Virus record (IMG/VR): IMGVR_UViG_3300009502_000244
Location: 1 to 20,496 of that record
DNA from: a virus
Length of the DNA: 20,496 nt
Direction: 5' to 3' (one strand)
The position numbers were made by a program, and so were the translations under genes. Every line of letters starts with the position of its first letter. Position 1 is the stretch's first letter. Positions 961 through 20,496 of this stretch are shown one piece after another. Under the pieces are notes generated by a model. The model was given only the letters and a program-made list of their open reading frames with translations, was not told where the DNA came from and did not search any database.

Positions 961-3300
961 TTATAATCTTATTATATTTATATCCCCATAAACATCAGTC
1001 CATTCAATTTTTACTTTATCACTAGTTTGTGTTATTTGATGGTTATATGTTTTAGACACTAACTCGGTCACATTACCGAGGTCTTTACGAATCAACGATG
1101 TACCGCCCACATTATTTCCTATTGTATTATATGAAAAATAATAACCACTTGAATTACTAATATTATTATATCGTACATTATCGCCTATAGTACAATACCG
1201 AACTTCTTGAATATAGTTATATGAAAAATTAATTCCAAATGTATTATACTTAGATTCCCACTCGTTTGTATTATTACTAAAATTATCACCACATGTGTTG
1301 TATTGGAAATACCCCCCGATATTATTTGTATTAAAATAATTACCAATTGAATTTGATTGGAAATAAACATTATCCAAAAGAGTGTTCGAATAAAAATATC
1401 GACCTATCTTGTTATATGATAAATAATTACCAATTAAATTAGAATAAAAATAAACATCAATATTATTATTGGTGAAAGAATTACCGATTTTATTTTTGTT
1501 AGATAATTCACCTATATTATTATATTGACAAGTGTCGCAAACTACATTAGAATAGAAATAATTATCGGTATTATTACGAGAAAAATAATTACCAATTGAA
1601 TTATAATAAAATAATTGTTTTATATTATTAAAAGAGAAATTGCTGTTAATTGAATTATATCTAAAAAACATTCCAATAATATTGTTTGTAAATGAATTGC
1701 CAATAGTATTGCTTACAAAGTAACTGTTAATGGTATTGTCATTAATTGATGACCCAAAAAATATGGAGTTATTATTAGTTAATATTGATGATGTATTTCC
1801 TGCAAATATATTATTGTATATGTTTGTATATGCTGATTGAGCACCATTAACAGTGTTATTTGTTGAAAACATATAATAATCCATATAATCTGAACTAACA
1901 GGAATTGAATAATTATAATTATCAACAGCCCAGTTATATTGCGAATAACTTGAATAAGTTAAATTATCAAATTCAAAACGCTTCCATGATGATGTAACCG
2001 TGAATAAAGCGGGCGTATTATTTATTTTAAAATAAATTTCAGATGTTCCAGTTTTGTTAACAACAGAACCAACACCAAACATTCCAACCATACCTGTCGC
2101 ATCCGTAGTTGTAACATTCAATTTCCATCTTCTAAATTTTACTTGTCTGTAATCAAAACCAATATCGTTTTTCTTTTTTGTGTCAATTCTTCTGTATATA
2201 TAACCTTTTGTACATCCAGGAACAACAGATGTATCGTTAACAACATTATAATAAATTTGGTCTTGAGGGAATAAAGCACTTGAACAAATAGGATTTAATG
2301 TATTAATACTTGATGCAGTAATTAGTAATGGTTCTGTATCCCCACTCATCGGAGCATTGCTAACAGGTTGCGTGTAGGTTGTTACATAATCAGTTAATAA
2401 ATAATTTTGACCTATAATTAACTGTGAGTTAGCTATCAAGTTTATTAATTGTGAGTATGTAACTGGAATATGCACCCCAATAAATTCATCTGCATTATGC
2501 GTTATAATGCTGCCAAGATTCAAGTCCAAGATTAATTGAGCCGCTACACCAGCATCTTCTTTTGTTGATACAAGTGCCATATCTGAATTAAAACTATTTT
2601 CCGAACCAACATATCCTCCATCAATAGCTCCTTGATAAGCTGTTTTTCCATCAAGACCATTGGAACCTTCGGCTAATATTCCGGTATCAATCAACCCTAT
2701 AAATCAGTTTTTATTTTCTCCTATATTCGGAGTAGTTCCATTTGTTCCAATCGCAATAATTCCAGTAGACACCCCATTTATATACCAATAGTTATTTTGT
2801 ATATAAGGGGTATATCCATCATCTCCCTTTTCTCCAACTAACGACAATAACTGTTCTTCTGTAAAATCTTCATAAAGAAATGGATCTCCTCTATCTCCTT
2901 TTAATGCGTTTTGTAATACAACATTAGTAGTTGTAATTGTATTCGATATATCTATTTCAACCAACATATTATATCCATCGTTTTCAGTTGGTGTATGATA
3001 GTCTGTTGGAAGTCTTTCAAATAACACTCCAGCAACAATAGTTTGTTTAACTCCGCCAGTACCATCTAATATAATTATCAAATCCCTATATCCACGCATT
3101 AAAAACGTATCATCGCTTGATAAGAATATTTTATAGTAACCATCTTCTTGAATTATAATTGGGTTATCTGTAGTGGAACCTATCAAAACACCACCTAAAT
3201 AAACTAGCATCTTTGTGTCTGCTGGAAATGTTTGTCCTGATTTTAATTTCAACCATATTGAAAAGCTATCGCCACACTTAATCGAGGTAGTTGTCAGCAT
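961..3300 (-). CDS. Tail fibre/spike with collagen-like linker and beta-helix repeats (779 aa, one TGA read as Trp)
   Basis: The frame is open from ATG 3298-3300 to TAA 961-963 if the TGA at 2704-2706 is read as Trp. That codon lies in the motif GENKN-(TGA)-FIGLIDTGI, which matches the widespread tail-fibre motif NWFIG.xDTG, so Trp is expected. Domains in order: an N-terminal beta-sandwich-like part (about 1-110); a linker with LKGDRGDPF and GEKGDDGYTP (about 130-170), short collagen-like pieces; the NWFIG region (about 198-225); and, in the C-terminal half, a long low-complexity repeat of the type NxIGNxFxxNxIxxYFxxN, more than fifteen turns, which I infer forms a right-handed parallel beta-helix. 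The likely role is host recognition or glycan binding. It follows the portal gene after a hairpin. Confidence 0.85.
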
Positions 3301-3360: not shown

Positions 3361-5751
3361 TTATTTTGGGACTTTAGATTTTTGCATTTTCTTTATTTCA
3401 ATTTCTTTTTCTTGAAGTTGATTTTGAATTTCATCTTGCCTTACTTTATGCTGATGTTGTGCGTTCTTTAACGCCATCTCTTCATCAAGTTTTTTAATCT
3501 TTAATTCTAAATCATCCTTAGAATAATCTTCTGGAAGTTCTACTTGATTAGCCATTTCTGCAATAAGGATTCTAGTTTCATTATCACGTTGATTTAATGT
3601 ATCTTCAAGTTGTATCTTTTGTTGTTCAACATCTTTTCTAGACTGCAATTCTTGCTGTTGCATTTTCATTGCATCCTGTTGTTCCTTAGATTTACGATCA
3701 TTCATATCTTTTTCATCTTTTTCAATGATTCTATGAACTTCAGCCATAGATGGAGAAGATAACACTTTCATCATTGCACCAAAAGACATCATTTGGTTTT
3801 GCATAGCCGCATGAGCCAGTTGCAATAATCCATCTTCTAGTCTCTGGGATTCATTACTATTGTCAAGAACTAATCCATAATCACATTCAGAAAACTCATC
3901 CCCATCAATATCAGCTATTTTAGATGCTCCATCAGATAATATATATTGAAACTTTTTAGAACCGCCTTTTAATGCTGCCTTAGATGTTTCTAAGAAGCAT
4001 TCAAGAGCTCTTTTCTTAACGTCATCATGCTTAGCAAATAACCACTCAGTAATATGTGAAGATTGTAGATTAGAACGTTCAACACCACCTACAGTTTCAG
4101 AAGATGATATTTGCCCTTCTCGTTGTTTGGATATTCCAGCAGCTTCAGACATTTCCATCTTCACAAACTCTAACAAGTTTATATGCTGTTGTATGTAATT
4201 ACCTTGCTCTAAATCTAACACACCAGAAGATTGTTGCATCATTCCAGATATCTTTCCTGTAGCTGCACCAATATTACCTTCCTTAAAACTATCAATTACT
4301 GCAATGTGATTTACCTTTGCATAATAAAGTCATTTATCAACTTCCCATCCTTTTGGAACCATCGCTAAATCTAACTTGAGCATCTTGCCTCAGTTAGCGG
4401 CTATAGCCTTATTTAAACGGTCATGTAAGGCATTATACATGTATTGGTAGGGTTTCATTACGTCTACCAAAGAAAATGGTTTAGTGTCGTTTATGTTGTA
4501 TATTGAACCTACAAAACCAAAGTGACATCTTGATGGGTTAGATAATCTATTAAACTGTACAACTCTTGGTCGCATATTTACATAAATCTCCTTACCAATC
4601 TTAGTTCCCTCCCAGGCTTCATTAATCCAAAATACTTCCTCCTCTTGACCTAAATCTTTATCACATTTGTATGTTTCTGGATAGAAGTCAAATTCTTCAT
4701 CTCCAGTTTCAGGATTGTATGATTTTACTTTTTTAATCTTACGTTTAGAACGCCAGTATGTTCTTACAACACGAATGTTACCATTGTTATCGAAATAATT
4801 TGTAGTAGCGGCAGAACCAGTTGTTTGTGCGAATATAGAATAATTGTCTATTACTGAGCCATATCCACCTTCAAATCCATTAATCTCATTTATATTGATA
4901 AAAGCATTACGCTCATCAATATTTGACATACTATCTCCAGAATAAACTTGTGGTAAGTTTTCTAAATATTCACAATCCGATTCCGTTAGAACATCATAGA
5001 ATGTATCTATAATTCTTCCTGGACTCCAAAAGTCTATATATGTAAGAATATCAGCATCTTCAATTCTATTAGAAAAACCGCTTTTAAATGTATGACATTT
5101 TAATGGATTAATTCTTTCAAAGGTAGGCTCTCCGCCAACAATATCACACTGGTAAATTTCTTCACCAACAATCATTGCATCCATGAATCCAGAATTGAAT
5201 TTATCTTTGATAGATAATTCTTTGATGTAGTGATTAAGAATTAGATTACCACGCTCTTCTCTGGCGTCTTGCCATTCATAAGTATAGTAATATGACATCT
5301 TATCCATCTCTGCATTAAAAGATTCTTCGTCTGGGTGACTTGCTTTTATTGCATCTTGTAAACTCCCCATTAATGCACTCTTCTTATTCTCTTCTATTTC
5401 AGAAACTGCATTAGGATTGGTAATTATTAAATATCAGTCAAACCTACGTTTTCGTTCTTCACCTAACAATAGATTTAGTTTACCTAACATTATTGGATAA
5501 TGCTGTATATTCTCTGGGACATAACTAGCGTCTGTATTATCTGGATTTAGAATCAATGACATATCGTTCAAATCCAATATGCCATTAACTAAATTATAGT
5601 TTATTCGCTTGCGTATGAATGACTTACGCACGACTGAATCTGAGTAGTAAATTTTACGATCTGACCAGTCGCAGACACTCTTACGCCATTCAGCATTTTT
5701 AGCGTTAAACGCAAGTTTTTGTCGAGGGAATGAGCTTACTTGTGTAGCCAT
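3361..5751 (-). CDS. Portal protein (796 aa, three TGA codons read as Trp)
   Basis: Three stretches separated by TGA at 5434-5436, 4390-4392 and 4330-4332 are in one frame and give a 796-residue protein from ATG 5749-5751 to TAA 3361-3363. The junctions read naturally with Trp: GEERKRRFD-W-YLIITNP, AIAAN-W-GKMLK and WEVDK-W-LYYAKV; the last pair also holds a TGG codon, so both codons are used. The N-terminal basic region, the GEERKRRFDW motif, the middle segment VVQFNRLSNPSRCHFGF and the region GISKQREGQISSSETVGGV are what I recall for crAss-like portal proteins. The last 100 or so residues are a Gln/Glu/Lys-rich coiled coil. The portal forms the dodecameric ring at the capsid vertex where DNA enters and the tail attaches. 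A promoter and a terminator lie just upstream. Confidence 0.85.
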
Positions 5752-6075: not shown

Positions 6076-8373
6076 TTAGAATTTTAATTTAGACTTTGTA
6101 AAATCATTCTTTCTATAGTTATTCTCAAAGAACTTATCTTTCCCAAGATAGTTAACATCTCTGTTTTGTCCAGCATCTCTGGCAGAGGTATCACCAAGCA
6201 ATCTCAGTTTATCTTCTCTAAGAAGCATAAGCATACACAACGCATCATGTCTATCATAATTTCCATCTACAGTGTACATCGCTAATTCCTGAAGAAGTCC
6301 CTTAGACCAAATCTTTTGATAATTAAATACAGATGTTATTTCCTCAACAACATTGCCATCAACTTCTTTAATAACTATTTCTGGAATTGATTTTAATAAA
6401 TAATCTCTAATACATCTTCTAGCATAAGGAGCTACCTGACCATAATTCCCAGTTCCTTTTGAGCGATTACCGTACATGCCAGACTTTACTATCTCTTTGT
6501 CTTTTAGAAACTCAAGTGTATCTGATAACAAGTATAGGCAATTGTGTTGAGAGAAGTACTTAAATAGTCCTTTCTTATTGTTTTCATAATTACATTCTGC
6601 ATTATACATAAGCAATGCAAGTCTTGCATTTTCATATGCATCATCTGCAAACATTGGCCTTCCAGTATATTCAAATACTAGTTCATCAGTTCATGTATCT
6701 AGTATAAACATGCTAAATAAAGAAGTGGTTTCAGAGGCGTCATCGTCATATGTGTCGATTCCGCTTATATATCTGCCTCATGGCACATTGCCAGAACTAC
6801 TCTTCACTGGCATATGTTTAATACATATCGCTCCCTCAATTTTGTTGTCTTTATGTGGAAACTCTGTTATATATTTTAAATCATTATCAGGCTTGTATTC
6901 AACTTCACCACTCTTTGATAAACTTAATCTTCCAATTCACATATCATTTGTGTATTTTGGATTAAGATTAATTTCATTAATTACATCGTTGAGTTTATCT
7001 GTTGGATATAATGAACCATCACGTTTCATAATAGCATCCTGGATAGTAAAGGCGGTTTCAGCTTTACGTCTGGTAAGTTGTAATGGGTCGGAAGAGTTGT
7101 ATTTGAGATTAATCCTATGCCTAATCTCTGAAATTAGCGCAGCAATTACATCACTTACACCATCTTCGTTATAATAGTCTCCAGAATTTATATATCCAGG
7201 AAAGAAAAATATCGTTCTCTTTTGCCCATTAGCCCCCTTATCCCAGAAGTTTGGTAATGAATATACATTATATCCATCAGGGTGAAGCAGCATTTCAAGT
7301 GCGCCGTTGAAGTCACTACCAGGAGTTCCACCTGTACCTATTGCATAAGCCATTCCCGATACAATATCTTCTATTTGAACGTTAGGTAAACATGTCTGCC
7401 ACACGTCCAAAAATTTAGGAAATGTACCAAACTCTTCATAAAACATTCTATCAGACCTTTTACCACGAGGTTTGTCTGGGTCGTCTTTAATTGCCACAGC
7501 TAATACTTCATTTAAACTACCCTTTGGTCTACCAGTGTCTTTATCTATAAATCCAGACTGCCATGTCATTTCCGACATAGATTCTTTTAGTCTCTTGGAT
7601 GGAAATTGAGTATTTTCTGCGCAATGATTTATACCATCAATAAATTTGTTTATTATAGCATCCTTTGTTAAGAACTCTTTTCCATAAGCAACAACTAAAC
7701 TCTTGATTTTCTTTCTGGCAAATTGATGTTTACCTAGTATAAACATTTTTGCAAGTACTGCTGCAAGACTGTAGCTTTTCGAAGCCCCCCTTTTAGCTAT
7801 CTCACAACCATGCTTCGCACCTTTAAAGTTATCGTATATTCCTCCAGTCACAGCTTGATTCATATAATGAAATCTTCAGTAAACTCCTTCCCACATTCTT
7901 GGAAAGTCAACAACCCTATCTGCCTGTTTGGTTCCTTCGATAGTTTTAGCCTGAATTATTGGGAAGTAATTTAAATAGAAATACATATCTCCAGTTATTC
8001 ACTCACCATCGGACTCTCTAACCATCCCATCTCAACACCTACTTACCTCTCGTTTAAGCCATTGCATATACTCTGATTGAGGATTTGGGTTTGGCATTAA
8101 TTTTGTGTAACATCCATGCTTTTTAAAATGTCTAGCAGATGCCGTAAAATAACTCATATCGGTCAGTATATGGGGATTGCACAAATCCACCAAAATTCTA
8201 CCTTTTGAATCTCTCCCTAAGTCTTTTGCATATTTTCTATCAGGAGATATAAGCCTTTTAATAAATTCAACATTATTTATCATGTCAAATAAATCATTCC
8301 GCTCCTCCTCCTTTAGCGATGCAATAAACTCATCGGTAAGTTGCGTTTGATGTTTATTTACTTCTACACCCAT
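6076..8373 (-). CDS. terL: Terminase large subunit (765 aa, six TGA codons read as Trp)
   Basis: This is the ATP-driven DNA packaging motor and headful nuclease. The 765-residue frame needs TGA at 8032, 7999, 7876, 6937, 6778 and 6691 (first bases) to be read as Trp. Context supports Trp: GE-W-ITGDMYFYLNYFPI carries the crAss-like terminase motif WITG..YFYLNY. Domains: an N-terminal region (1-165); an ATPase with Walker A AKRGASKS (about 193-200) and Walker B RMFYEEFG (about 309-316); and an RNase H-like nuclease starting GIDTYDDD (about 538-545), with a further acidic site in GNYDRHDAL (about 704-712). The start ATG lies two bases after the stop of the upstream gene. Walker A is atypical but keeps the lysine and serine. 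Apparent short ORFs inside are fragments created by the standard code. Confidence 0.93.
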
Positions 8374-11222: not shown

Positions 11223-11300
11223 TTTTATAAATTTAAAAACAATTAAAAAATGAATTAAAAGATATACTTTCACAAGTACTTAATTATGAAACAATTATAG

Positions 11301-14193: not shown

Positions 14194-15057
14194 CTATGTT
14201 ATATTATTATTTAAGAAATTGTCTGGGAGTTGATCTGATTGATTGTTTTTAGCAACATTATTAAGTAATCATAAGGCGTCTTTATTACTATAATGCTCTA
14301 AGAATCTTTTACCACCAGATGACTTCATACTTTTAATCATATCTAGATGTTTTTGTTCTATTGGTTTATTTAAAACATCAATTCCTTTCTGATATAATTC
14401 ATATCTTAAAGTATTCATGTCGGATTTGTTTTCTTCTTTCCATGAATCATGCATGTCTTTATTTTTAAAATCTGGAAGCAGCCTATTGTTTAATTCATTA
14501 GAATCTTTTTCGTTTAATGCATTACCATCAGTATCAGTTTCTTTATGTCCATATTCATGGACTTCTATAGATGATATTGGCACGTTAAGTTTCTTTGCTT
14601 CTTTTGTATCTACGACTATATTTCCAGGAAAGTTAGACCCACTAAATCCTTCAGTATATGGAATATTATGAATATCATTATATACCTGTTTGTCTCAAGA
14701 TGGTGTTCCACTTTGATAAACAGTATTTGTTTTTTTAACCCTGTTTAGTCTATTTTTAATCTCATCATTAACGTTCGTATATCCACTGCTAGATAATCTG
14801 TCTTTATATATAGGTGATTCTATGTATTTTTCTGTAAACTCTTTTGGCCCTAATTGTTTCTCAACGGTTCTAGTAGTGTATTTATCTGGAACAAAACTAA
14901 AATTATCTGGAGATGGTTGCATCATTATTGGTTTTCCACCATTTCCAAAAGCATTATAACTCTCCCTTATCCCATCCAAATCCCTTATACCATTCTGTAT
15001 ATGTAATCTCATTACATCTCTCTTATCTCTCATAGAGAGATCATTTCAATTACCCAT
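14194..15057 (-). CDS. Putative zinc metallopeptidase with HExxH motif (287 aa, three TGA codons read as Trp)
   Basis: The protein is whole only if TGA at 15046, 14695 and 14269 (first bases) is read as Trp. The ATG (15055-15057) overlaps the upstream stop as TAATG. The N terminus, MGN-W-NDLSMRDKRDVMRLH..NGIRDLDGIRESYN, is a short helical motif I recall at the start of several crAss-like virion proteins. Residues about 155-175 read VPISSIEVHEYGHKE; HEYGH is a zincin HExxH zinc site, preceded by a beta strand (NIVVDTKEAK), the usual order in minimal metallopeptidases. The third zinc ligand is not obvious; ERFLEHYSNKD further on has E and H candidates. It could process virion proteins or the host wall; this is inference. 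Stop is TAG. Confidence 0.65.
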
Positions 15058-15287: not shown

Positions 15288-15450
15288 AACAATTTATAAT
15301 TGAAGCACGTTCTTTAATCCAATCATTATATCCATCAACAGTAGACTTAATTGACTCTCGCTCCCTGTCATGAGCTTCTTTCTCAAACTTAATTCGCAAC
15401 TTAGCATTATACTTTTCTAAATTATCTAAAAACTCTTTATTCTTCGTCAT
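15265..15450 (-). CDS. Small charged hypothetical protein (61 aa), first gene after the structured leader
   Basis: ATG at 15448-15450 is preceded by AAAGG seven bases upstream. The 61-residue product is highly charged and helical (LDNLEKYNAKLRIKFEKEAHDRERESIK), a likely coiled coil, ending with two Cys (53 and 61). It overlaps the next gene by 23 bases. It heads the leftward operon that includes the HExxH protein. No family recognised. Confidence 0.65.
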   Translation of the reverse strand: MTKNKEFLDNLEKYNAKLRIKFEKEAHDRERESIKSTVDGYNDWIKERASIINCYGTRQSC

Positions 15451-15867
15451 GATATACCTTTATGAATACGTCACGAATAACCTCGTGCGTTGATAACTAA
15501 TTAGTTATTGTTGTTTATGTTTTAAATTAATAGATATAAGAGGTCCTAACCAAGTTAATGATTAAGACCAGTCGTTACCTCAGGCGATATAAACCTTAAA
15601 CTTTAATAAGATGCGTCTACCATTATTTGGAAATGGATTACCCCTAGGAGCCTTTTGTCCTCAACCCATATTAATTGCTGGGTGGCTCAATCTTATCTAT
15701 ATTAAGGCAGTTTGCGTCAGTGTAGGAGAAACCTCTGTGAATGTTTTTAAATGCGCACATACAATCCTACGTCTATTCCATAGTTTATAATGCCTCTTTC
15801 TCATTATATATATGGAAGTTCTACTTGCAAATCCAGTAGCTGACTAGTTTAATATTTTAAACTTGTA
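15451..15867 (-). ncRNA. Long structured 5' leader of the leftward operon
   Basis: About 400 bases lie between the promoter at 15868-15899 and the first ATG, with no gene. Paired parts include GTAGGA (15722-15727) with TCCTAC (15765-15770), and a multi-arm element closed by ATAAGAT (15606-15612) with ATCTTAT (15690-15696); inside it GAGCC/GGCTC, ACCCA/TGGGT (nested on one arm) and CCATT-N7-AATGG (second arm). It may be a leader regulator, a separate small RNA, or a protective 5' structure. No known riboswitch class or tRNA was recognised. Confidence 0.5.
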
Positions 15868-15899
15868 CAAAGGTAAACAAAGTTTTTCAATCTACCAAA
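15868..15899 (-). promoter_or_regulatory. Bacteroidota-type promoter of the leftward late operon
   Basis: Minus strand: -33 TTTG (15896-15899), 20-base spacer, -7 TACCTTTG (15868-15875). Box extended as TTTGGTAGATTGAA, as at 13.8 kb. It fires leftward from the strand-switch region into the structured leader. Confidence 0.8.
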
Positions 15900-16112
15900 C
15901 TTTTTCTATATTATTTTTGGTATATCGCTATAATAATTTTTTATAGAAATTTTTTGCAAAATATTTTTGAAATTTTTCTGAATTGGTTAGAGAGTGGGAT
16001 ACCCCCATACCAACCCCCGCCCCTTGCTGCCGCAGGTGGGTGTCCCCCTGTCGGTATTCAAAACACATTGTTTTGTCTTATAATTTATTCATTTATTTAA
16101 TACATTTATTTT
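15900..16112. other. Strand-switch region with a GC-rich G-tract island
   Basis: Transcription diverges here. Bases 15900-15990 are nearly all A/T and hold two plus-strand TAnnTTTG boxes (15912-15919 and 15962-15969) without clear -33 boxes. Bases 15994-16058 form an abrupt GC-rich island: GTGGGATACCCCC and GTGGGTGTCCCCC are near repeats, and ATACC/GGTAT can close the island. The minus strand holds GGGGCGGGGG, TTGGTAT and GGGGG in sequence plus one more G5 tract, so a quadruplex is conceivable. From 16059 an AAAACA/TGTTTT hairpin and an A/T leader lead to the first rightward gene. An origin or regulatory divide is an inference. Confidence 0.5.
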
Positions 16113-16400
16113 ATGAAATCAATTTCGGAATTAATCAAAGAAAACAAGTTTACACGTTTACCTTTGGCATCTAAATTTAGCTGCAAATTTGACGGCTTTA
16201 AAGAAACTGCATCAGGTAATGGCATTTTAATGAAATTCAATGCAACCGAAGTTACAACCGCCAAAACTTACAAAGGTGTACTTTGGTTAGCAAACAATTC
16301 TATTCAAACTGAAGAATTTAACAAGGATGAAATTTTCATTATTGAAACTGAATCTGAATTAAATGCAGACGGTTATGTTGTAATCAATTTAGTTGACTAA
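16113..16400 (+). CDS. Hypothetical protein (95 aa), first rightward gene
   Basis: ATG start and TAA stop with an A/T leader, followed by a perfect terminator, so it is a single-gene unit. The product begins MKSISELIKENKFTRLPLAS and has a beta-rich centre FSCKFDGFKETASGNGILMKF and AKTYKGVLWLANNSIQ. Small beta-barrel (OB-like) nucleic-acid binding is imaginable but unproven. Codon use is richer in G/C than the genes further right, and it uses TGG. Being alone next to the GC island, it is a candidate early gene. Confidence 0.75.
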   Translation: MKSISELIKENKFTRLPLASKFSCKFDGFKETASGNGILMKFNATEVTTAKTYKGVLWLANNSIQTEEFNKDEIFIIETESELNADGYVVINLVD

Positions 16401-16406
16401 TATCTA

Positions 16407-16437
16407 ATAACTATATAGAAATATATAGTTATTTTTT
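16407..16437 (+). terminator. Rho-independent terminator
   Basis: ATAACTATATA-GAAA-TATATAGTTAT (11-bp perfect stem, GAAA tetraloop) followed by a run of T (16432-16437), seven bases after the stop of the first rightward gene. Confidence 0.9.
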
Positions 16438-16446
16438 ATATTCACA

Positions 16447-16570
16447 GTCAACAAAGGTCAAGTTTTTTAAGGTTTAATGTCAACAAAGGTTAATATGTAT
16501 CACGCATTCTTAACTATGATTATTTATCGACAAAGCGTTGTCGTATTATGATACATTCTTTGTTGACATT
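16447..16570 (+). repeat. GTCAACAAAG repeats and large inverted-repeat element (E1)
   Basis: GTCAACAAAGGT occurs directly repeated at 16447-16458 and 16479-16490, and AATGTCAACAAAG (16476-16488) is met in inverted form by CTTTGTTGACATT (16558-16570): a 13-bp closing stem. Inside, ATGTATC pairs with GATACAT (7 bp) and CGACAA-AGCG-TTGTCG forms the tip. It may be a protein-binding site (iterons/operator), a replication origin, or a structured RNA. Confidence 0.6.
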
Positions 16571-16578
16571 ATTTATTT

Positions 16579-16682
16579 ATAACTGCGTAGTTAGGCATTG
16601 CTACGTTATCATAAATGCATTGAGAGGTTGCTTTCAACCTCAACACTATGCACGATAATCAACCACCGAGGTTGGCAGTTAT
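16579..16682 (+). ncRNA. Four-way-junction element (E2)
   Basis: The closing stem ATAACTGC (16579-16586) pairs with GCAGTTAT (16675-16682). Inside sit three arms with almost no unpaired linker: GTAG/CTAC (16587-16590 with 16601-16604); a long arm made of TTATC/GATAA, TGCAT/ATGCA and GAGGTTG-CTTT-CAACCTC (16606-16658); and CAACC-ACCGA-GGTTG (16660-16674). This cloverleaf layout lacks tRNA-conserved bases. It is read as a structured RNA or DNA cruciform; function unknown. Confidence 0.6.
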
Positions 16683-16689
16683 TTTATAT

Positions 16690-16765
16690 ATCCACAATAA
16701 TACAACAAGCTATAAAAGTACTTATTAGTCCAATAAGAATTTAAGTGATTAGGAGTGTTGTGGAT
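16690..16765 (+). ncRNA. Stem-closed element (E3)
   Basis: ATCCACAA (16690-16697) pairs with TTGTGGAT (16758-16765); inside is CTTATT-AGTCC-AATAAG (16721-16737). It starts seven bases after E2 ends, so the elements are laid end to end. Confidence 0.5.
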
Positions 16766-16808
16766 TTATTTATTTTTATTCTCTGCGAAGCCTATAATAA
16801 AGTCTTTC

Positions 16809-16860
16809 TATAATTAAAGTTGATGATATTCAACCTTATTCTAAAGTAACCTTAATTATA
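16809..16860 (+). ncRNA. Stem-closed element (E4)
   Basis: TATAATTAA (16809-16817) pairs with TTAATTATA (16852-16860), with inner hairpin GTTGA/TCAAC (16819-16834). It is A/T rich, so chance pairing is easier than for E1-E3. Confidence 0.4.
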
Positions 16861-16894
16861 ATGAATTCAATTCAAAATTTATTGTTAGAGTACA

Positions 16895-16931
16895 CGCGCA
16901 CGCACTCGACTATCGTCTCGCGCGACGCGAA
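16895..16931. other. CpG-rich patch in non-coding DNA
   Basis: About ten CpG steps occur within 37 bases, made of CGCGCACGC, CTCGACTATCGTC and TCGCGCGACGCG, flanked by pure A/T DNA. CpG is otherwise rare in this window. No coding frame or known site is recognised; it may be a protein-binding or modification-sensitive site. Confidence 0.4.
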
Positions 16932-16950
16932 TTAATTATTATAACACAAT

Positions 16951-17015
16951 TAACCCCAACCTACCAAGCAATTGTTAATCAAATACTTATGTATAAGTGG
17001 TTAGTGTTGGGGTTA
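16951..17015 (+). ncRNA. Stem-closed element (E5)
   Basis: TAACCCCAAC (16951-16960) pairs with GTTGGGGTTA (17006-17015), a 10-bp perfect and G/C-bearing stem. Inside is ACTTA-TGTA-TAAGT. The loop has no coding frame. Confidence 0.55.
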
Positions 17016-17316
17016 TTTATAATAGTTGAAGTTTTACTTTAGATTTGTTAGCTAAGTTGTTGGTAATGAGAGTGATAATATCCCATCATCCCTACTTTTG
17101 CCCGTTATACATAACTCGGTACTATGCATTACATAGTACTATATGATAACTATTTTATATCGCGCTTAATTTATCAATCAACTATTGTTTCATGTTATTT
17201 TACTAGAGTGCATACCATAATTATGTGGTAGGTTTATATGATTATGTATAAGTTTAGGTCAATATAATACTATTTGTGTATTAAATTAGATGCTCAAACT
17301 CTAAAATTATTATATT
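17016..17316 (+). other. Non-coding stretch with two hairpins
   Basis: No gene is seen. Hairpins GTACTATG-CATTA-CATAGTAC (17119-17139, 8 bp) and TACCA/TGGTA (17213-17230) are present. The last 60 bases form the A/T leader of the next gene. No convincing promoter box was found. Confidence 0.4.
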
Positions 17317-17583
17317 ATGGATATAGTTATATTCGATAAAGATTGTGTAAATGCGATAGCAACAGTTCATCCAACAGGTGTTGATATAAATAGAAATAAA
17401 GTTATTCAAATTATATTTGATCAGAAATTAGAATTGCATAACTTTATATCAGAATTAATATTAATAGACCAAGACTTTGAGTATAAATTTGGACGTATAC
17501 TTATAAAATTGCAATCAATTAAAAGATTATCATTTATAATTAGAGAGAAAGACCCTAATAAAAAATGGTGGGATCAAAAGTAA
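17317..17583 (+). CDS. Hypothetical protein (88 aa)
   Basis: ATG start, TAA stop, flanked on both sides by structured non-coding DNA. The product MDIVIFDKDCVNAIATVHPTG.. is soluble and mixed alpha/beta, with a basic C terminus (REKDPNKKWWDQK, both Trp as TGG). No known family is recognised. Its codon use is strongly A/T biased like its right-hand neighbours. Confidence 0.65.
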   Translation: MDIVIFDKDCVNAIATVHPTGVDINRNKVIQIIFDQKLELHNFISELILIDQDFEYKFGRILIKLQSIKRLSFIIREKDPNKKWWDQK

Positions 17584-17587
17584 TTTA

Positions 17588-17630
17588 TAGTTTAATTTAT
17601 GCTCCTATGTGTATAGGAGCAATTAAACTA
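17588..17630 (+). ncRNA. Long two-part hairpin (E7)
   Basis: TAGTTTAATT (17588-17597) pairs with AATTAAACTA (17621-17630); after a TAT bulge GCTCCTAT pairs with ATAGGAGC with a GTGT tetraloop. In all 18 bp. No T-run follows, so it is not a classic terminator; it directly follows the 88-residue gene and may protect its 3' end. Confidence 0.55.
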
Positions 17631-17693
17631 AATCATTAAACTAAACCAACAGAGTTTTCAAACCTATTTATAGGGGAGGAAACTTTAATTATT

Positions 17694-17835
17694 AACAACA
17701 CAAATAAGGTTATTACGAATTATACGCTATGGCCTAGTATAAGACTATAATCACTCACCAAGCTCCGTGTGTACATGCGCCTTGCTCTGTTTAAAATTAG
17801 GTGAGGAGTAAATTCCTCACTTGTGTTGTTTTTTT
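17694..17835 (+). ncRNA. Multi-arm element ending in a T-run (E8)
   Basis: AACAACACAA (17694-17703) pairs with TTGTGTTGTT (17821-17830), followed by T through 17835. Enclosed arms: TATAC/GTATA (17721-17741), CAAG/CTTG (17759-17784) and GTGAGGA-GTAAAT-TCCTCAC (17801-17820, 7 bp). So a four-way-like RNA finishes in a terminator-like tail, as expected for a free-standing small RNA. Confidence 0.6.
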
Positions 17836-17842
17836 AATCATA

Positions 17843-17938
17843 ATCCAATAGAATATAATAATACATAATTCCATGACTGTAGGACATGTCCGTCGTTAAA
17901 TAAAGTGATAAATAATTATTATATCTATTGGATTTTTA
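17843..17938 (+). ncRNA. Long-stem element (E9)
   Basis: ATCCAATAG plus ATATAATAAT pairs with ATTATTATAT plus CTATTGGAT (17843-17862 with 17915-17933), a 19-bp stem with one bulged A. Inside is the palindrome GGACATGTCC. Five T follow the stem (17933-17937). It begins 8 bases after E8. Confidence 0.6.
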
Positions 17939-17985
17939 AAACAAACTTATTAAACAATTATACAAACAATTTAAATTAAACTATT

Positions 17986-18270
17986 ATGCTTACAACCTTT
18001 ATTATTCTTTTAGCTCTAATTATTACTAGCTCAATTATAGTTGGTATTATACAAAGCAATAACGCTGATTTTGCAGGATTACACGCATTAGCAATTGTTA
18101 TAGTTCTTATATTTTCTATCGCTTTTATAACTTATATCAATGAAAATGAGAAAAACATTGATAGTAAAACATTATTAAAGCCCTCAATTAAAATTGAAAC
18201 TATTAAAAATGATAGTAATATCATTAAATCAGACACAACTTATATATATAAGTTTAAAAACAACAATTAA
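17986..18270 (+). CDS. Small two-pass membrane protein (94 aa)
   Basis: ATG start after the leader AAATTAAACTATT, which is repeated before the next gene. Two hydrophobic segments are plain: LTTFIILLALIITSSIIVGII (about 2-22, quoted in parts) and HALAIVIVLIFSIAFITYI (about 33-51), joined by a short polar loop, then a charged cytoplasmic-type tail rich in Lys/Asn/Ser. It has no known family. Superinfection exclusion or other membrane roles are typical of such small phage proteins but not shown here. Confidence 0.7.
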   Translation: MLTTFIILLALIITSSIIVGIIQSNNADFAGLHALAIVIVLIFSIAFITYINENEKNIDSKTLLKPSIKIETIKNDSNIIKSDTTYIYKFKNNN

Positions 18271-18295
18271 TATAAATCTTTTAAATTAAACTATT

Positions 18296-18538
18296 ATGGA
18301 AGCTACGGCAACTTTAAACAGACGTCAACGTCGACAAGCTATGAAAAATAGCAAGTATTCTCACAACAATCGCAAGAATGAACAAAAGAGTGTTCAAGTA
18401 ATTTACTCAGAGCCTAAAATAATTATGGTTGGTAGTTATACTACTAAATCAGGTCAAGTAAAAAATCGCTATCGTGTTAATCCTAACGCAAAAGCGGTTA
18501 AGATTATTACTCACAAAGTGTATCATATTAATTATTAA
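18296..18538 (+). CDS. Small very basic protein (80 aa)
   Basis: ATG start preceded by AAATTAAACTATT as in the gene before, 25 bases after its stop. The N-terminal third is highly basic (LNRRQRRQAMKNSKYSHNNRKNEQK), suited to binding nucleic acid; the second half reads PKIIMVGSYTTKSGQVKNRYRVNPN and is beta-like. No family is assigned. The basic tail would suit RNA binding, noteworthy next to the structured RNA elements, but that is speculation. Confidence 0.65.
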   Translation: MEATATLNRRQRRQAMKNSKYSHNNRKNEQKSVQVIYSEPKIIMVGSYTTKSGQVKNRYRVNPNAKAVKIITHKVYHINY

Positions 18539-18661
18539 TATCATACAAATACTTTAATAAATAACAAAAATATAAATACTAATTAATTAATTATAATAAC
18601 CAATTATAATGAGTTTGTAGGCTTTTTGTTTTATTGATACGGATAGTTATTTATTATTAAT

Positions 18662-18754
18662 ACACATATAATTGAATGAAGCGTCATTATTGTGTGTGTA
18701 AGTATTTGTTTTATAAAAATTGTGTAAAATAAATTATTATAAAAAACAAACTTA
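18662..18754 (+). ncRNA. Two hairpins between small genes (E10)
   Basis: ACACA(T)ATAAT pairs with ATTATTGTGT (18662-18695, 10 bp with one bulge) and AAGT/TTTGTTTTATAA pairs with TTATAA(AA)AACAAA/CTT (18700-18754). They fill the gap before the 39-residue gene. A/T-richness makes chance pairing possible. Bases 18539-18661 show nothing else. Confidence 0.4.
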
Positions 18755-18777
18755 AATATTCTATAGAGACTATATTA

Positions 18778-18897
18778 ATGACTTCTATAATGATCTATTC
18801 AGCAAGTAAACCTGAAATATACCACATTATCATACCAATGATCTTTGAAGTGATGACAGCATTTAGTATAATAGCTTTAGTTACTTGTAGAAAATAA
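18778..18897 (+). CDS. Tiny membrane-type peptide (39 aa)
   Basis: ATG 18778-18780 to TAA 18895-18897. The product MTSIMIYSASKPEIYHIIIP continues with IFEVMTAFSIIALVTCRK, giving one hydrophobic segment at the C-terminal half and a short basic end, as in one-pass phage peptides. Coding status rests only on an open frame and composition. Confidence 0.4.
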   Translation: MTSIMIYSASKPEIYHIIIPMIFEVMTAFSIIALVTCRK

Positions 18898-18901
18898 TAT
18901 T

Positions 18902-19062
18902 AAAAGAAAACTTCCATTCAATAAGTTATAGTCGAACATTAATTTTAGATGGTGTGAGTTACTCGAACCTACATAATGTTTACATTCCTAGCAACTAGAG
19001 TCAGGGCGGAAGTCTAATAATTATGTACACAAGAATGACAATCTTGTGGATAGTTTTCTTTT
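18902..19062 (+). ncRNA. Multi-arm element (E11)
   Basis: AAAAGAAAACT (18902-18912) pairs with AGTTTTCTTTT (19052-19062), 11 bp perfect. Arms inside: ACATAAT/ATTATGT (18971-19026) holding CTAG-CAA-CTAG, and CACAAGA-ATGACAA-TCTTGTG (19028-19048). A further CCAT/ATGG pairing may close the first part. No gene fits. Confidence 0.6.
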
Positions 19063-19072
19063 ACAATAATAT

Positions 19073-19160
19073 AAAGAGCTAAATAAAATAATGTGGTTAT
19101 ATTGTGTTAGAATATTACGACACATAATAATTATGTATGAAGATAAACCTTTAGCTCTTT
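19073..19160 (+). ncRNA. Stem-closed element (E12)
   Basis: AAAGAGCTAAA (19073-19083) pairs with TTTAGCTCTTT (19150-19160), 11 bp perfect, with TGTGT/ACACA and CATAAT/ATTATG inside. It begins 10 bases after E11 ends. Confidence 0.55.
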
Positions 19161-19200
19161 CAATACAATATTACCTCAAAGATGATGCGAGGAATATTTA

Positions 19201-19279
19201 GATGTGGTCAGTGGGCTATCTGACAAATTGCATGTATGTAAACGCACGCGGATTTACGAGGTTCGAGTCCTCGCACATC
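19201..19279 (+). ncRNA. tRNA-like element, degenerate cloverleaf
   Basis: GATGTG (19201-19206) pairs with CACATC (19274-19279). Arms: GTCAG-TGGGCTAT-CTGAC (like a D arm), a middle arm AAATT/GATTT with a large loop in place of a 7-base anticodon loop, and CGAGG-TTCGAGT-CCTCG, a perfect T arm with canonical loop. Bases 8-9 are missing and no proper anticodon is visible, so I do not call a functional tRNA. A hairpin CCTC/GAGG flanked by AATATT lies just upstream (19168-19199). Confidence 0.55.
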
Positions 19280-19322
19280 ACAATTAATAATCAAATTATA
19301 AACTCACTAAAAATTCAAATTT

Positions 19323-19472
19323 ATGAAAAAGCAATATCAATTAGTAGACAATGATGATACAGTCATTGACTCAAGCAATGAAAATGATGGCAGATTGGAA
19401 GATTTAGCCAATGATTTAGAGTTCGAAACAAAAGTAGTAATGGTTATAATTAAAGATAATTATGAGGCATAG
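19323..19472 (+). CDS. Small acidic protein (49 aa)
   Basis: ATG 19323-19325 to TAG 19470-19472, overlapping the next gene by 11 bases. The product MKKQYQLVDNDDTVIDSSNE continues acidic and ends VVMVIIKDNYEA. Coupled overlap with the following frame supports its coding. No family recognised. Confidence 0.55.
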   Translation: MKKQYQLVDNDDTVIDSSNENDGRLEDLANDLEFETKVVMVIIKDNYEA

Positions 19473-19701
19473 AATATGTATAGCTATAGTAACAGCCACT
19501 TCTTGCGGAACAGTAGTATACAAGGAGTCAAAAGAAGTTATCAGACAGCAACTATCTGATAAAGCCAGACTAAAAGAGTACAATAAACGTCATGATGAAT
19601 TTATGGCATTAGGTGGTACTCGTGAATTAAAATCTTACAGCGATAACGTAGCTATGCAAATAGCTCAATTTAAACAATCAAAAGCAAGAGTGATGTTATA
19701 G
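19462..19701 (+). CDS. Hypothetical protein with hydrophobic N terminus (79 aa)
   Basis: ATG 19462-19464 lies inside the end of the preceding gene (ATGAGGCATAG), stop TAG. The start MRHRICIAIVTATSCGTVVY is basic then hydrophobic and may be a membrane anchor or weak signal; the Cys context (TATSC) is not a standard lipobox. The rest is charged and helical (KEVIRQQLSDKARLKEYNKR), probably a coiled coil. No family recognised. Confidence 0.6.
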   Translation: MRHRICIAIVTATSCGTVVYKESKEVIRQQLSDKARLKEYNKRHDEFMALGGTRELKSYSDNVAMQIAQFKQSKARVML

Positions 19702-19728
19702 TCATTTTTGTATAATAAACTTATTATC

Positions 19729-19896
19729 ATGAAAACAACATTTAAAATAAAATACTTTATTGGCTCTTTAATTTTTGGAGCAATAATAATCTCATCCATA
19801 ATACACACAGATAGATATGATATTTTTATCCCTATTATATTTGGAACATTATTTATATTCTCAATATCACTATTAATTGTGGATAAAAAGATATAA
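19729..19896 (+). CDS. Small two-pass membrane protein (55 aa)
   Basis: A TTG at 19708 could start the frame, but ATG 19729-19731 (MKTTFKIKYFIGSLIF) is the likely start. Two hydrophobic stretches, YFIGSLIFGAIIISSII and IFIPIIFGTLFIFSISLLIV, are separated by the short polar HTDRYD. It is a typical small phage inner-membrane protein; function unknown. Confidence 0.6.
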   Translation: MKTTFKIKYFIGSLIFGAIIISSIIHTDRYDIFIPIIFGTLFIFSISLLIVDKKI

Positions 19897-19901
19897 ATGT
19901 T

Positions 19902-20018
19902 ATGAGAAAATTGTCTTTAATTAAAAAAGTATATCAAAGAATTATTGAATTAAAGATAATTTCTTTGATATATTTAAATATATTCTTAAAAAAACACAAG
20001 AAAAATGGATACAAATAA
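19902..20018 (+). CDS. Tiny basic hydrophobic peptide (38 aa), uncertain
   Basis: ATG 19902-19904 to TAA 20016-20018, overlapping the next ATG by 14 bases. The product MRKLSLIKKVYQRIIELKII continues LIYLNIFLKKHKKNGYK, one amphipathic helix. The same stretch holds a 10-bp inverted repeat TATCAAAGAA/TTCTTTGATA (19932-19970), so it may instead be another stem-closed element of the array. I cannot decide between the two. Confidence 0.4.
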   Translation: MRKLSLIKKVYQRIIELKIISLIYLNIFLKKHKKNGYK

Positions 20019-20274
20019 TTATTATGATAAAAAAGCAGATAAAACAATATCCACATTAAAGTTGTTTTTAATATGGCTTGCATACACACTAGTATTAATA
20101 ACTTTATGGAATATCAATATAATCTTATTTATAATTTATTCAATATTTATAATAAATAAATTATTTAAATTGCATTTAATTTGTAAAATATTTGGACATA
20201 TACCAGCAGAGCATATAAATAGCGGAACGATTAAATGTATGCATTGCAATAAACCTTTATATAGAAAGAGATAA
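20005..20274 (+). CDS. Membrane protein with C-terminal zinc knuckle (89 aa)
   Basis: ATG 20005-20007, TAA stop. The N-terminal soluble piece is followed by two hydrophobic segments (STLKLFLIWLAYTLVLITLW and INIILFIIYSIFIINKLF) and a short cysteine-bearing tail: LICKIFGHIPAEHI..GTIKCMHCNKPLYRK. The pattern C-KIFGH ... C-x2-C resembles small phage proteins of the DUF1660 kind ('CK.FGH...C.RCG'), here fused to a membrane anchor. A single zinc site facing the cytoplasm is inferred. All Trp codons are TGG. Confidence 0.65.
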   Translation: MDTNNYYDKKADKTISTLKLFLIWLAYTLVLITLWNINIILFIIYSIFIINKLFKLHLICKIFGHIPAEHINSGTIKCMHCNKPLYRKR

Positions 20275-20276
20275 AA

Positions 20277-20351
20277 ATGACTATTAAACAAGTAAAAAAA
20301 CAAGAAAAAGAAATAAATAATATTAATAAAAAGTTTAAATATTATCAATAA
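20277..20351 (+). CDS. Possible 24-residue lysine-rich peptide
   Basis: ATG two bases after the previous stop, TAA just before the next gene. The product MTIKQVKKQEKEINNINKKF is a short charged helix. Composition is as expected for any A-rich DNA, so coding is doubtful; it may serve only to couple its neighbours. Confidence 0.25.
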   Translation: MTIKQVKKQEKEINNINKKFKYYQ

Positions 20352-20352
20352 T

Positions 20353-20496
20353 ATGAAACAATTATTAATATTTTTTTTATTATTTTTAACAACAATTTTA
20401 TATTCCCAAACATTTCCATATGTTTCGATATCAACAAATATAAATGGTATAGAATATTGGAGTACATCTAATCATTGGGCTAAACACCCAACAAAA
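20353..20496 (+). CDS. Exported protein, N-terminal part (48 codons, runs off the window)
   Basis: ATG 20353-20355; the frame stays open to the right edge. The start MKQLLIFFLLFLTTILYSQ is a clear signal peptide with the Bacteroidota-typical end 'LYSQ' before a likely cleavage site, followed by TFPYVSISTNINGIEYWSTS. The mature protein is therefore exported to the periplasm or the outside. Its job is unknown because most is missing. Phage proteins with Sec signals often act on the host envelope (lysis or superinfection exclusion); this is an inference. Confidence 0.6.
   Translation, partial: MKQLLIFFLLFLTTILYSQTFPYVSISTNINGIEYWSTSNHWAKHPTK

Follow-up and report, generated by a model that had tools for sequence, protein, structure and literature searches.

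crAss-like phages rank with the most abundant viruses of the human gut, and most of their early functions are obscure. Small phage RNAs encoded near tRNAs are exemplified by the species 1 and 2 RNAs of T4. Here, we describe a chain of stem-closed elements, designated A to N, in the early non-coding DNA of a virus fragment of 20,496 bases (IMG/VR record IMGVR_UViG_3300009502_000244), referred to below as the window. The analysis centers on a tRNA-like element, N, and on two further structured elements, L and B.

Several kinds of phage RNA provide a background for this locus. Stable non-coding RNAs are known from intergenic DNA of PhiKZ (PMC8545117), self-cleaving theta ribozymes occur in gut phages (PMC10879173), and phage tRNAs that counter defence have been reported (PMC11555353, PMC12409363). 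The bacterial Y RNA YrlA has a tRNA-like domain (PMC7790460), and the early genes of crAss001 include one for a TROVE (Ro60-type) protein (PMC10136315). Recoding of UGA and UAG is also established in crAss-like phages (PMC7886860). In the literature covered, most of it outside subscription journals, we found no paper on RNAs of the present kind in crAss-like phages, and their intergenic DNA was not treated as RNA genes.

Stem-closed segments in the early region

Judged from its sequence, the window represents part of the genome of a Steigviridae-like phage (Crassvirales). Its large terminase and portal match crAss-type PHROGs, the portal is 58-63% identical to those of Steigviridae phages, and gene order is shared with named members of this family, with GroEL, TerL and portal genes on one strand and tiny early genes on the opposite one. 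Its divergent junction and early region recur at ~70-90% identity in two contigs, L002 and L184 (the parent record of L004). No nucleotide match for window positions 15450-20496 was found in INPHARED.

A preliminary description of the window had reported eleven stem-closed segments, lying almost end to end, in the rightward non-coding DNA. All eleven are present and their closing stems are near the lengths given, the only inconsistency being a count of "at least nine" set beside eleven stems and eleven intervals. We counted disjoint perfect Watson-Crick stems of at least 8 bp with at least two GC pairs, enclosing 25-165 nt, and compared them with 100 dinucleotide shuffles per stretch. The non-coding DNA of 16401-19322 holds 11 such segments versus ~2.8 in shuffles (5, 2 and 4 in its three stretches, versus 1.26, 0.45 and 1.08). 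Over 15 early non-coding stretches from the window and its relatives, 33 stems were found versus 12.0 +- 3.1. A smaller excess occurs in the same gaps of the named relatives frurule, tikkala, DAC15 and cr108 (22 versus 12.7 +- 2.8). Coding controls have no excess (43 bp of stem versus 60 +- 20), nor does the divergent junction at 15451-16112, which has 0 stems.

Folding energies of single elements, expressed as z-scores against shuffles, gave a mixed picture. Five elements fold strongly (A, -4.9; B, -4.4; G, -6.1; M, -3.9; E, -3.0), and four moderately, between -2.3 and -2.8 (I, J, C and L). The scores of D (16809-16860; -1.4) and of the segment containing N (19200-19281; -1.5) are not significant. 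Since sliding-window energies do not set this region apart from nearby coding DNA, the signal resides in the closing stems rather than in overall stability.

Elements N, L and B

Element N (19200-19280, + strand) has an acceptor stem, a D arm with GG and a T arm with a UUCGAGU loop. In place of the anticodon arm it carries a distal arm of 10 bp with bulges and an 8-nt loop, which is invariant in three phages (the window, L002 and L184) and is the best-conserved part by sequence. In the alignment of these three phages, 96% of the cells of 26 pairs are paired and 11 of the 26 pairs are changed on both sides, a result reached in 0 of 500 shuffles and far above slid controls. Covariation extends to all three tRNA-type stems (compensated pairs: 6 of 7 in the acceptor, 3 of 4 in the D stem and 2 of 5 in the T stem), and the pairs of the distal arm are almost unchanged. 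Immediately 5' of N lies a hairpin, AATATTACCTCAAAGATGATGCGAGGAATATT (19164-19198, + strand; z -3.4), that is almost invariant in L002 and L184.

Neither ARAGORN nor the Rfam tRNA model recognises N. With a covariance model (CM) trained on N plus its two homologues, the homologues reach 104 and 94 bits; among the next hits, 21 of the 23 checked are called or annotated tRNAs. A descriptor consisting of the acceptor, a D arm with GG and a T arm with a UUYRANY loop recovers N together with ~12 others missed by ARAGORN, where fewer than one would be expected. Because a 10-bp arm with an 8-nt loop replaces the 5-bp anticodon stem and 7-nt loop, N is not an ordinary decoding tRNA, and from its sequence it is predicted to be incapable of decoding codons. 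A hidden protein was also rejected: the frame of the open reading frame at 19202-19354 is stopped in L184, and the changes lack synonymous-site bias. At 81 nt, N holds no tag reading frame between its tRNA-like ends and drew no tmRNA call from ARAGORN or Rfam. It shares a tRNA-like domain with the bacterial Y RNA YrlA and has no match among Rfam Y RNAs at E-values up to 10. The preliminary description had put forward tRNA-like decoys, regulators and packaging or replication structures as candidate roles for the segments; the tRNA likeness holds for exactly one of the eleven, N, and for none of the others. The scaffold of N persists although its sequence changes, and the distal arm does not vary; this pattern suggests that a tRNA-handling protein would hold the scaffold and that the arm would do the specific work.

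Element L (18902-19062, + strand) comprises a long closing helix, an inner multi-helix arm and a 3' hairpin, with conserved GGGCGGAAG and TATGTACACA. Ten of its 37 pairs are changed on both sides with 95% paired, again reached in 0 of 500 shuffles and far above slid controls. Its covariance model (R2) scores 179-181 bits in L002 and L184; a further hit in G017 was judged to be chance, as was a pattern match in L083, which lies in an unrelated tail gene. Both N and L contain invariant U-G pairs that would become A-C mismatches on the opposite strand, which argues for + strand RNA in each case.

Element B (16579-16682, + strand; z -4.4) is predicted to fold into a four-way junction whose loops UUAGGCAUU and ACCGA are conserved and whose middle arm varies; a T-run follows the stem. 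Homologues are present in L002 and L184, where its covariance model (R3) scores 98-105 bits; a hit in W02 was judged to be chance. The closing stem and two arms are almost invariant, with one compensated pair. In the window and in L002 the middle arm forms a helix from sequences that have nothing in common, and the junction is predicted for both. Conserved RNA structure is therefore found in L and N and in part in B, and from their sequences these three are the best supported candidates for + strand RNAs. That L and B are two new RNA families is a tentative proposal.

The island in related phages and its other elements

More distant Steigviridae-like contigs, L177 to L183, have the same layout with tiny early genes and gaps of up to ~1300 nt. 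Elements B, H, L and N, the last with its hairpin, are shared with both L002 and L184; A, D and K with L002; C with L184; and F with L002, L184 and L177. Their order differs, D preceding B in L002 and the K motif having moved in L184, and different genes follow the elements in different phages. Because of these changes, and because a tmRNA and a Pistol ribozyme occupy the same region in sister phages, the region appears to be a modular island that houses small RNA genes. Scans of viral contigs with patterns for L, N, H and F yielded no true relatives besides L002, L184 and L177, a portal-based scan yielded one new relative without this region, and exact motif searches of GTDB genomes for B and for the N hairpin yielded no copy.

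The remaining elements, all given on the + strand, begin with a terminator-like hairpin, AACTATATAGAAATATATAGTTATTTTTTA (16406-16437), after a 95-aa early gene; the same hairpin with an altered stem is found in L002. Element A (16476-16570; 13-bp closed) starts with the word GTCAACAAAGG, which recurs at 16447-16457, and is ~92% identical in L002, so a covariation test is impossible. Element C (16690-16765; 10-bp closed; z -2.7) is a module closed by ATCCACAATAAG and CTTATTGTGGAT at the same place in L184, and part of the weak element D (16809-16860) is kept in L002. No homologue was found for E (16951-17015; 10-bp closed), for the 18-bp hairpin-like G (17588-17630), for I (17694-17835; z -2.7), which is closed by AACAACAC and GTGTTGTT, has a terminator-like inner hairpin and is followed by T7, or for J (17843-17938; z -2.8), followed by T5. 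The place of M (19073-19160; 11-bp closed) is taken in L184 by an unrelated 14-bp closed module. The preliminary description overlooked the N hairpin and three conserved stretches. F (17204-17305) ends ~11 nt 5' of a start codon and is 80-84% identical in L002, L184 and L177; its covariation is no better than in shuffles and its structure is unsupported. H (17640-17680; GAGTTTYCAAACC..GGGGAGGAAAC) is leader-like, with one copy in L002 and two in L184 before different genes. K (18635-18705) is a conserved hairpin stretch with TGAAGCGTCA, 85% identical in L002 over 114 nt. D and F lack statistical support. No window element exceeded the gathering score of any Rfam 15 family, which ruled out known ribozymes and riboswitches among them. 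Integron attC-like cassettes were rejected as well, since the closing stems, inspected by eye, depart from the AAC...GTT rule.

Known and unusual RNA genes occur in the sister phages. The early array of L177 holds a tmRNA (RF00023, 75 bits, 7219-7594), whose tag frame, by eye, may end ...AYRAAA*, unlike the peptide given by ARAGORN. In L002, ~700 nt of non-coding DNA (1240-1960) that looks structured and has no Rfam match leads at its 3' end into a Pistol ribozyme (RF02679, 59 bits, 1974-2036). L178, L180, L182 and L184 encode tRNA-like RNAs whose anticodon regions are odd or carry inserts. We also noted tRNA genes of 113-157 nt in total with long anticodon or variable inserts, missed by ARAGORN, in L178 (7485-7641, reverse complement), L002 (7558-7686) and L182 (14874-14992 and 15119-15231, reverse complement). 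TROVE genes lie beside tRNA-like RNAs in PhiCrAssBcn17 and cr111_1. In PhiCrAssBcn17 (OQ221552.1, ~81091-83160; L222, 2592-4659), the TROVE/Ro60 gene is followed by two such RNAs in which 80-100 nt replaces the anticodon arm; they share the word TTACTTCAA, present in four copies in the stretch, and by analogy are probably phage Y RNAs. In frurule, a phage cultured on Bacteroides cellulosilyticus (OQ198718.1; L214, 18316-19451, - strand), visual inspection turned up a tRNA-like element absent from the annotation (AAGTTGA...TCAACTT; T arm AGAGGTTCGACTCCTCT), together with a 12-bp closed RNA followed by T6. At L177 8180-10060, a palindromic segment follows each small open reading frame and appears attC-like by eye, as if these were captured gene cassettes or the contig were chimeric.

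Elsewhere in the window, in-frame TGA codons break the portal and large terminase genes, and reading TGA as Trp restores their full length; from the sequence, the phage would thus read TGA as Trp. In-frame TGA codons occur in late genes at 3361-5751, 6076-8373, 961-3300 and 14194-15057 (- strand), whose frames are restored in the same way. ARAGORN detected a tRNA with a UCA anticodon, likely an opal suppressor, close to tRNA-Thr. The 73 nt immediately 3' of this gene (11228-11300, - strand) are A+T-rich, without an Rfam match, and 93-99% identical in L003, L004 and L005, a conservation far exceeding that of the flanks. TerL genes of L003 and L004 additionally carry intein-like and homing-endonuclease-like insertions. 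Left of the divergent junction, L004 and L107 keep the non-coding DNA of 15459-15880 (- strand) at 72-73%, and a Bacteroides-type promoter is matched at 15868-15899; the stretch is possibly a further structured RNA or a - strand leader. At 18741-18897, a small membrane-protein-like frame has ATA where L002 and L184 have an intact ATG frame, and is either a pseudogene or a gene with an unusual start.

Explanations and comparison with known systems

We consider it probable that the region is an island of independent small structured RNA genes on the + strand, in or beside the rightward early transcript, whose RNAs would act in trans. The excess of stems, the covariation of L and N, the conserved four-way fold of B, the reshuffled order and the varied neighbouring genes support it. 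The rest we infer: the early transcript would be processed to release the RNAs, N through the host's RNase P and tRNA 3'-end maturation and the others at terminal stems or T-runs; pairing of each RNA's own two ends would cap it against exonucleases; and the released RNAs would act in trans during host takeover. N would most likely serve as a mimic or decoy, displaying the invariant distal arm from its tRNA scaffold to a host partner that binds tRNAs, namely an enzyme that processes or attacks them. Our best guess is a set of stable early-transcript RNAs that may act in trans, one as a tRNA mimic. The fuller proposal, of a rapidly exchanged island of stem-capped RNA genes serving as a host-takeover kit, with a non-decoding tRNA mimic (its invariant arm ~29 nt) as conserved core and L and B as two new families beside it, is possible and clearly more doubtful.

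Several observations weigh against independent RNA genes. Covariation draws on only three or four sequences per element and could stem from a small number of events; energies computed in sliding windows, where element ends play no part, are no different from those of nearby coding DNA; and the relatives yielded no homologue of G, I, J or M. No Bacteroides-type promoter was found on the + strand within the island, so independent promoters of this type for the elements were rejected. F and H stand directly before start codons and fit cis-acting leaders better. These last points favor the main rival, in which cis-acting leaders, attenuators, terminators and cleavage sites tune the tiny early genes on a polycistronic RNA, with N as RNase P punctuation. 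The T-runs that end some elements and the terminator-like sites (8 versus 1.2 in shuffles) agree with it. However, downstream genes differ among the phages, the order changes, several elements stand in tandem with no gene between them, and the distal arm of N is conserved more than cleavage requires; we regard a purely cis role as rather unlikely. The preliminary view of an undescribed set of phage non-coding RNAs is upheld by covariation in two elements, a conserved fold in a third and the lack of Rfam matches. It weakens at D, which is chance-like by folding, and at the four elements without homologues.

The other explanations are less probable still. N, and perhaps others, might be a phage Y RNA, a partner of Ro60/TROVE that tethers an exoribonuclease or guards tRNAs. 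The early TROVE gene of crAss001 (PMC10136315), the TROVE genes adjoining tRNA-like RNAs in PhiCrAssBcn17 and cr111_1 and the tRNA-like domain of YrlA (PMC7790460) point that way, whereas N has neither an Rfam Y-RNA match nor an insert of the PhiCrAssBcn17 kind. Because the two records in which N has homologues, fragments of 78.7 and 57 kb, contain no TROVE gene, N was not filed as a Y RNA, and we think this identity improbable. DNA-level structures, such as replication, packaging or recombination sites at a genome end, are very unlikely: the tRNA-type loops and invariant U-G pairs indicate RNA, and the elements are many and dissimilar rather than one repeated site, even if both strands fold about equally and the counterpart junction in DAC15 lies within a 1842-bp direct terminal repeat. 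Least probable of all are chance inverted repeats in A+T-rich DNA. The insignificant folding of D and F and the sliding-window energies are what chance would give, and yet closing stems are in three- to fourfold excess and L and N covary. Chance is refuted for the set of elements; for D, and less so for I and J, it is still possible.

With covarying RNAs and a candidate tRNA mimic in this dense island, and a tmRNA, a ribozyme and probable Y RNAs as counterparts in relatives, the findings suggest that these phages use RNA tools to take over the host or to counter its defences. Relatives have been cultured on Bacteroides: crAss001 and PhiCrAssBcn phages on B. intestinalis, frurule on B. cellulosilyticus and DAC15 on B. 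thetaiotaomicron.

Among known systems, the closest kind is the Ro60-adjacent tRNA-like RNAs of cultured relatives, the probable Y RNAs. Like bacterial Y RNAs (YrlA) with Ro60/Rsr, N appears to be a non-coding RNA with a tRNA-like domain, and TROVE genes and tRNA-like RNAs adjoin in related Steigviridae; unlike them, N lacks a long inserted module, and no TROVE gene lies in the fragmentary records that carry it. With the canonical tRNA (RF00005), N shares the acceptor, D and T arms, the D-loop GG and the T-loop UUCGAGU, and it differs in the geometry of the distal arm. With tmRNA, which the early array of L177 contains, it shares tRNA-like ends, but N is short, has a D stem, and has neither a tag reading frame nor pseudoknots. 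Gut-phage ribozymes (theta and Pistol) are likewise structured RNAs of recoded gut phages, Pistol even lying in the corresponding region of L002, whereas the window elements match no ribozyme family. The PhiKZ and T4 RNAs are also small phage RNAs from intergenic DNA; here, in contrast, ten or more elements with unrelated sequences and a common end-paired architecture occupy 2.9 kb. What is new relative to known phage non-coding RNAs is the number, density and architecture of the elements and the presence of a candidate non-decoding tRNA mimic.

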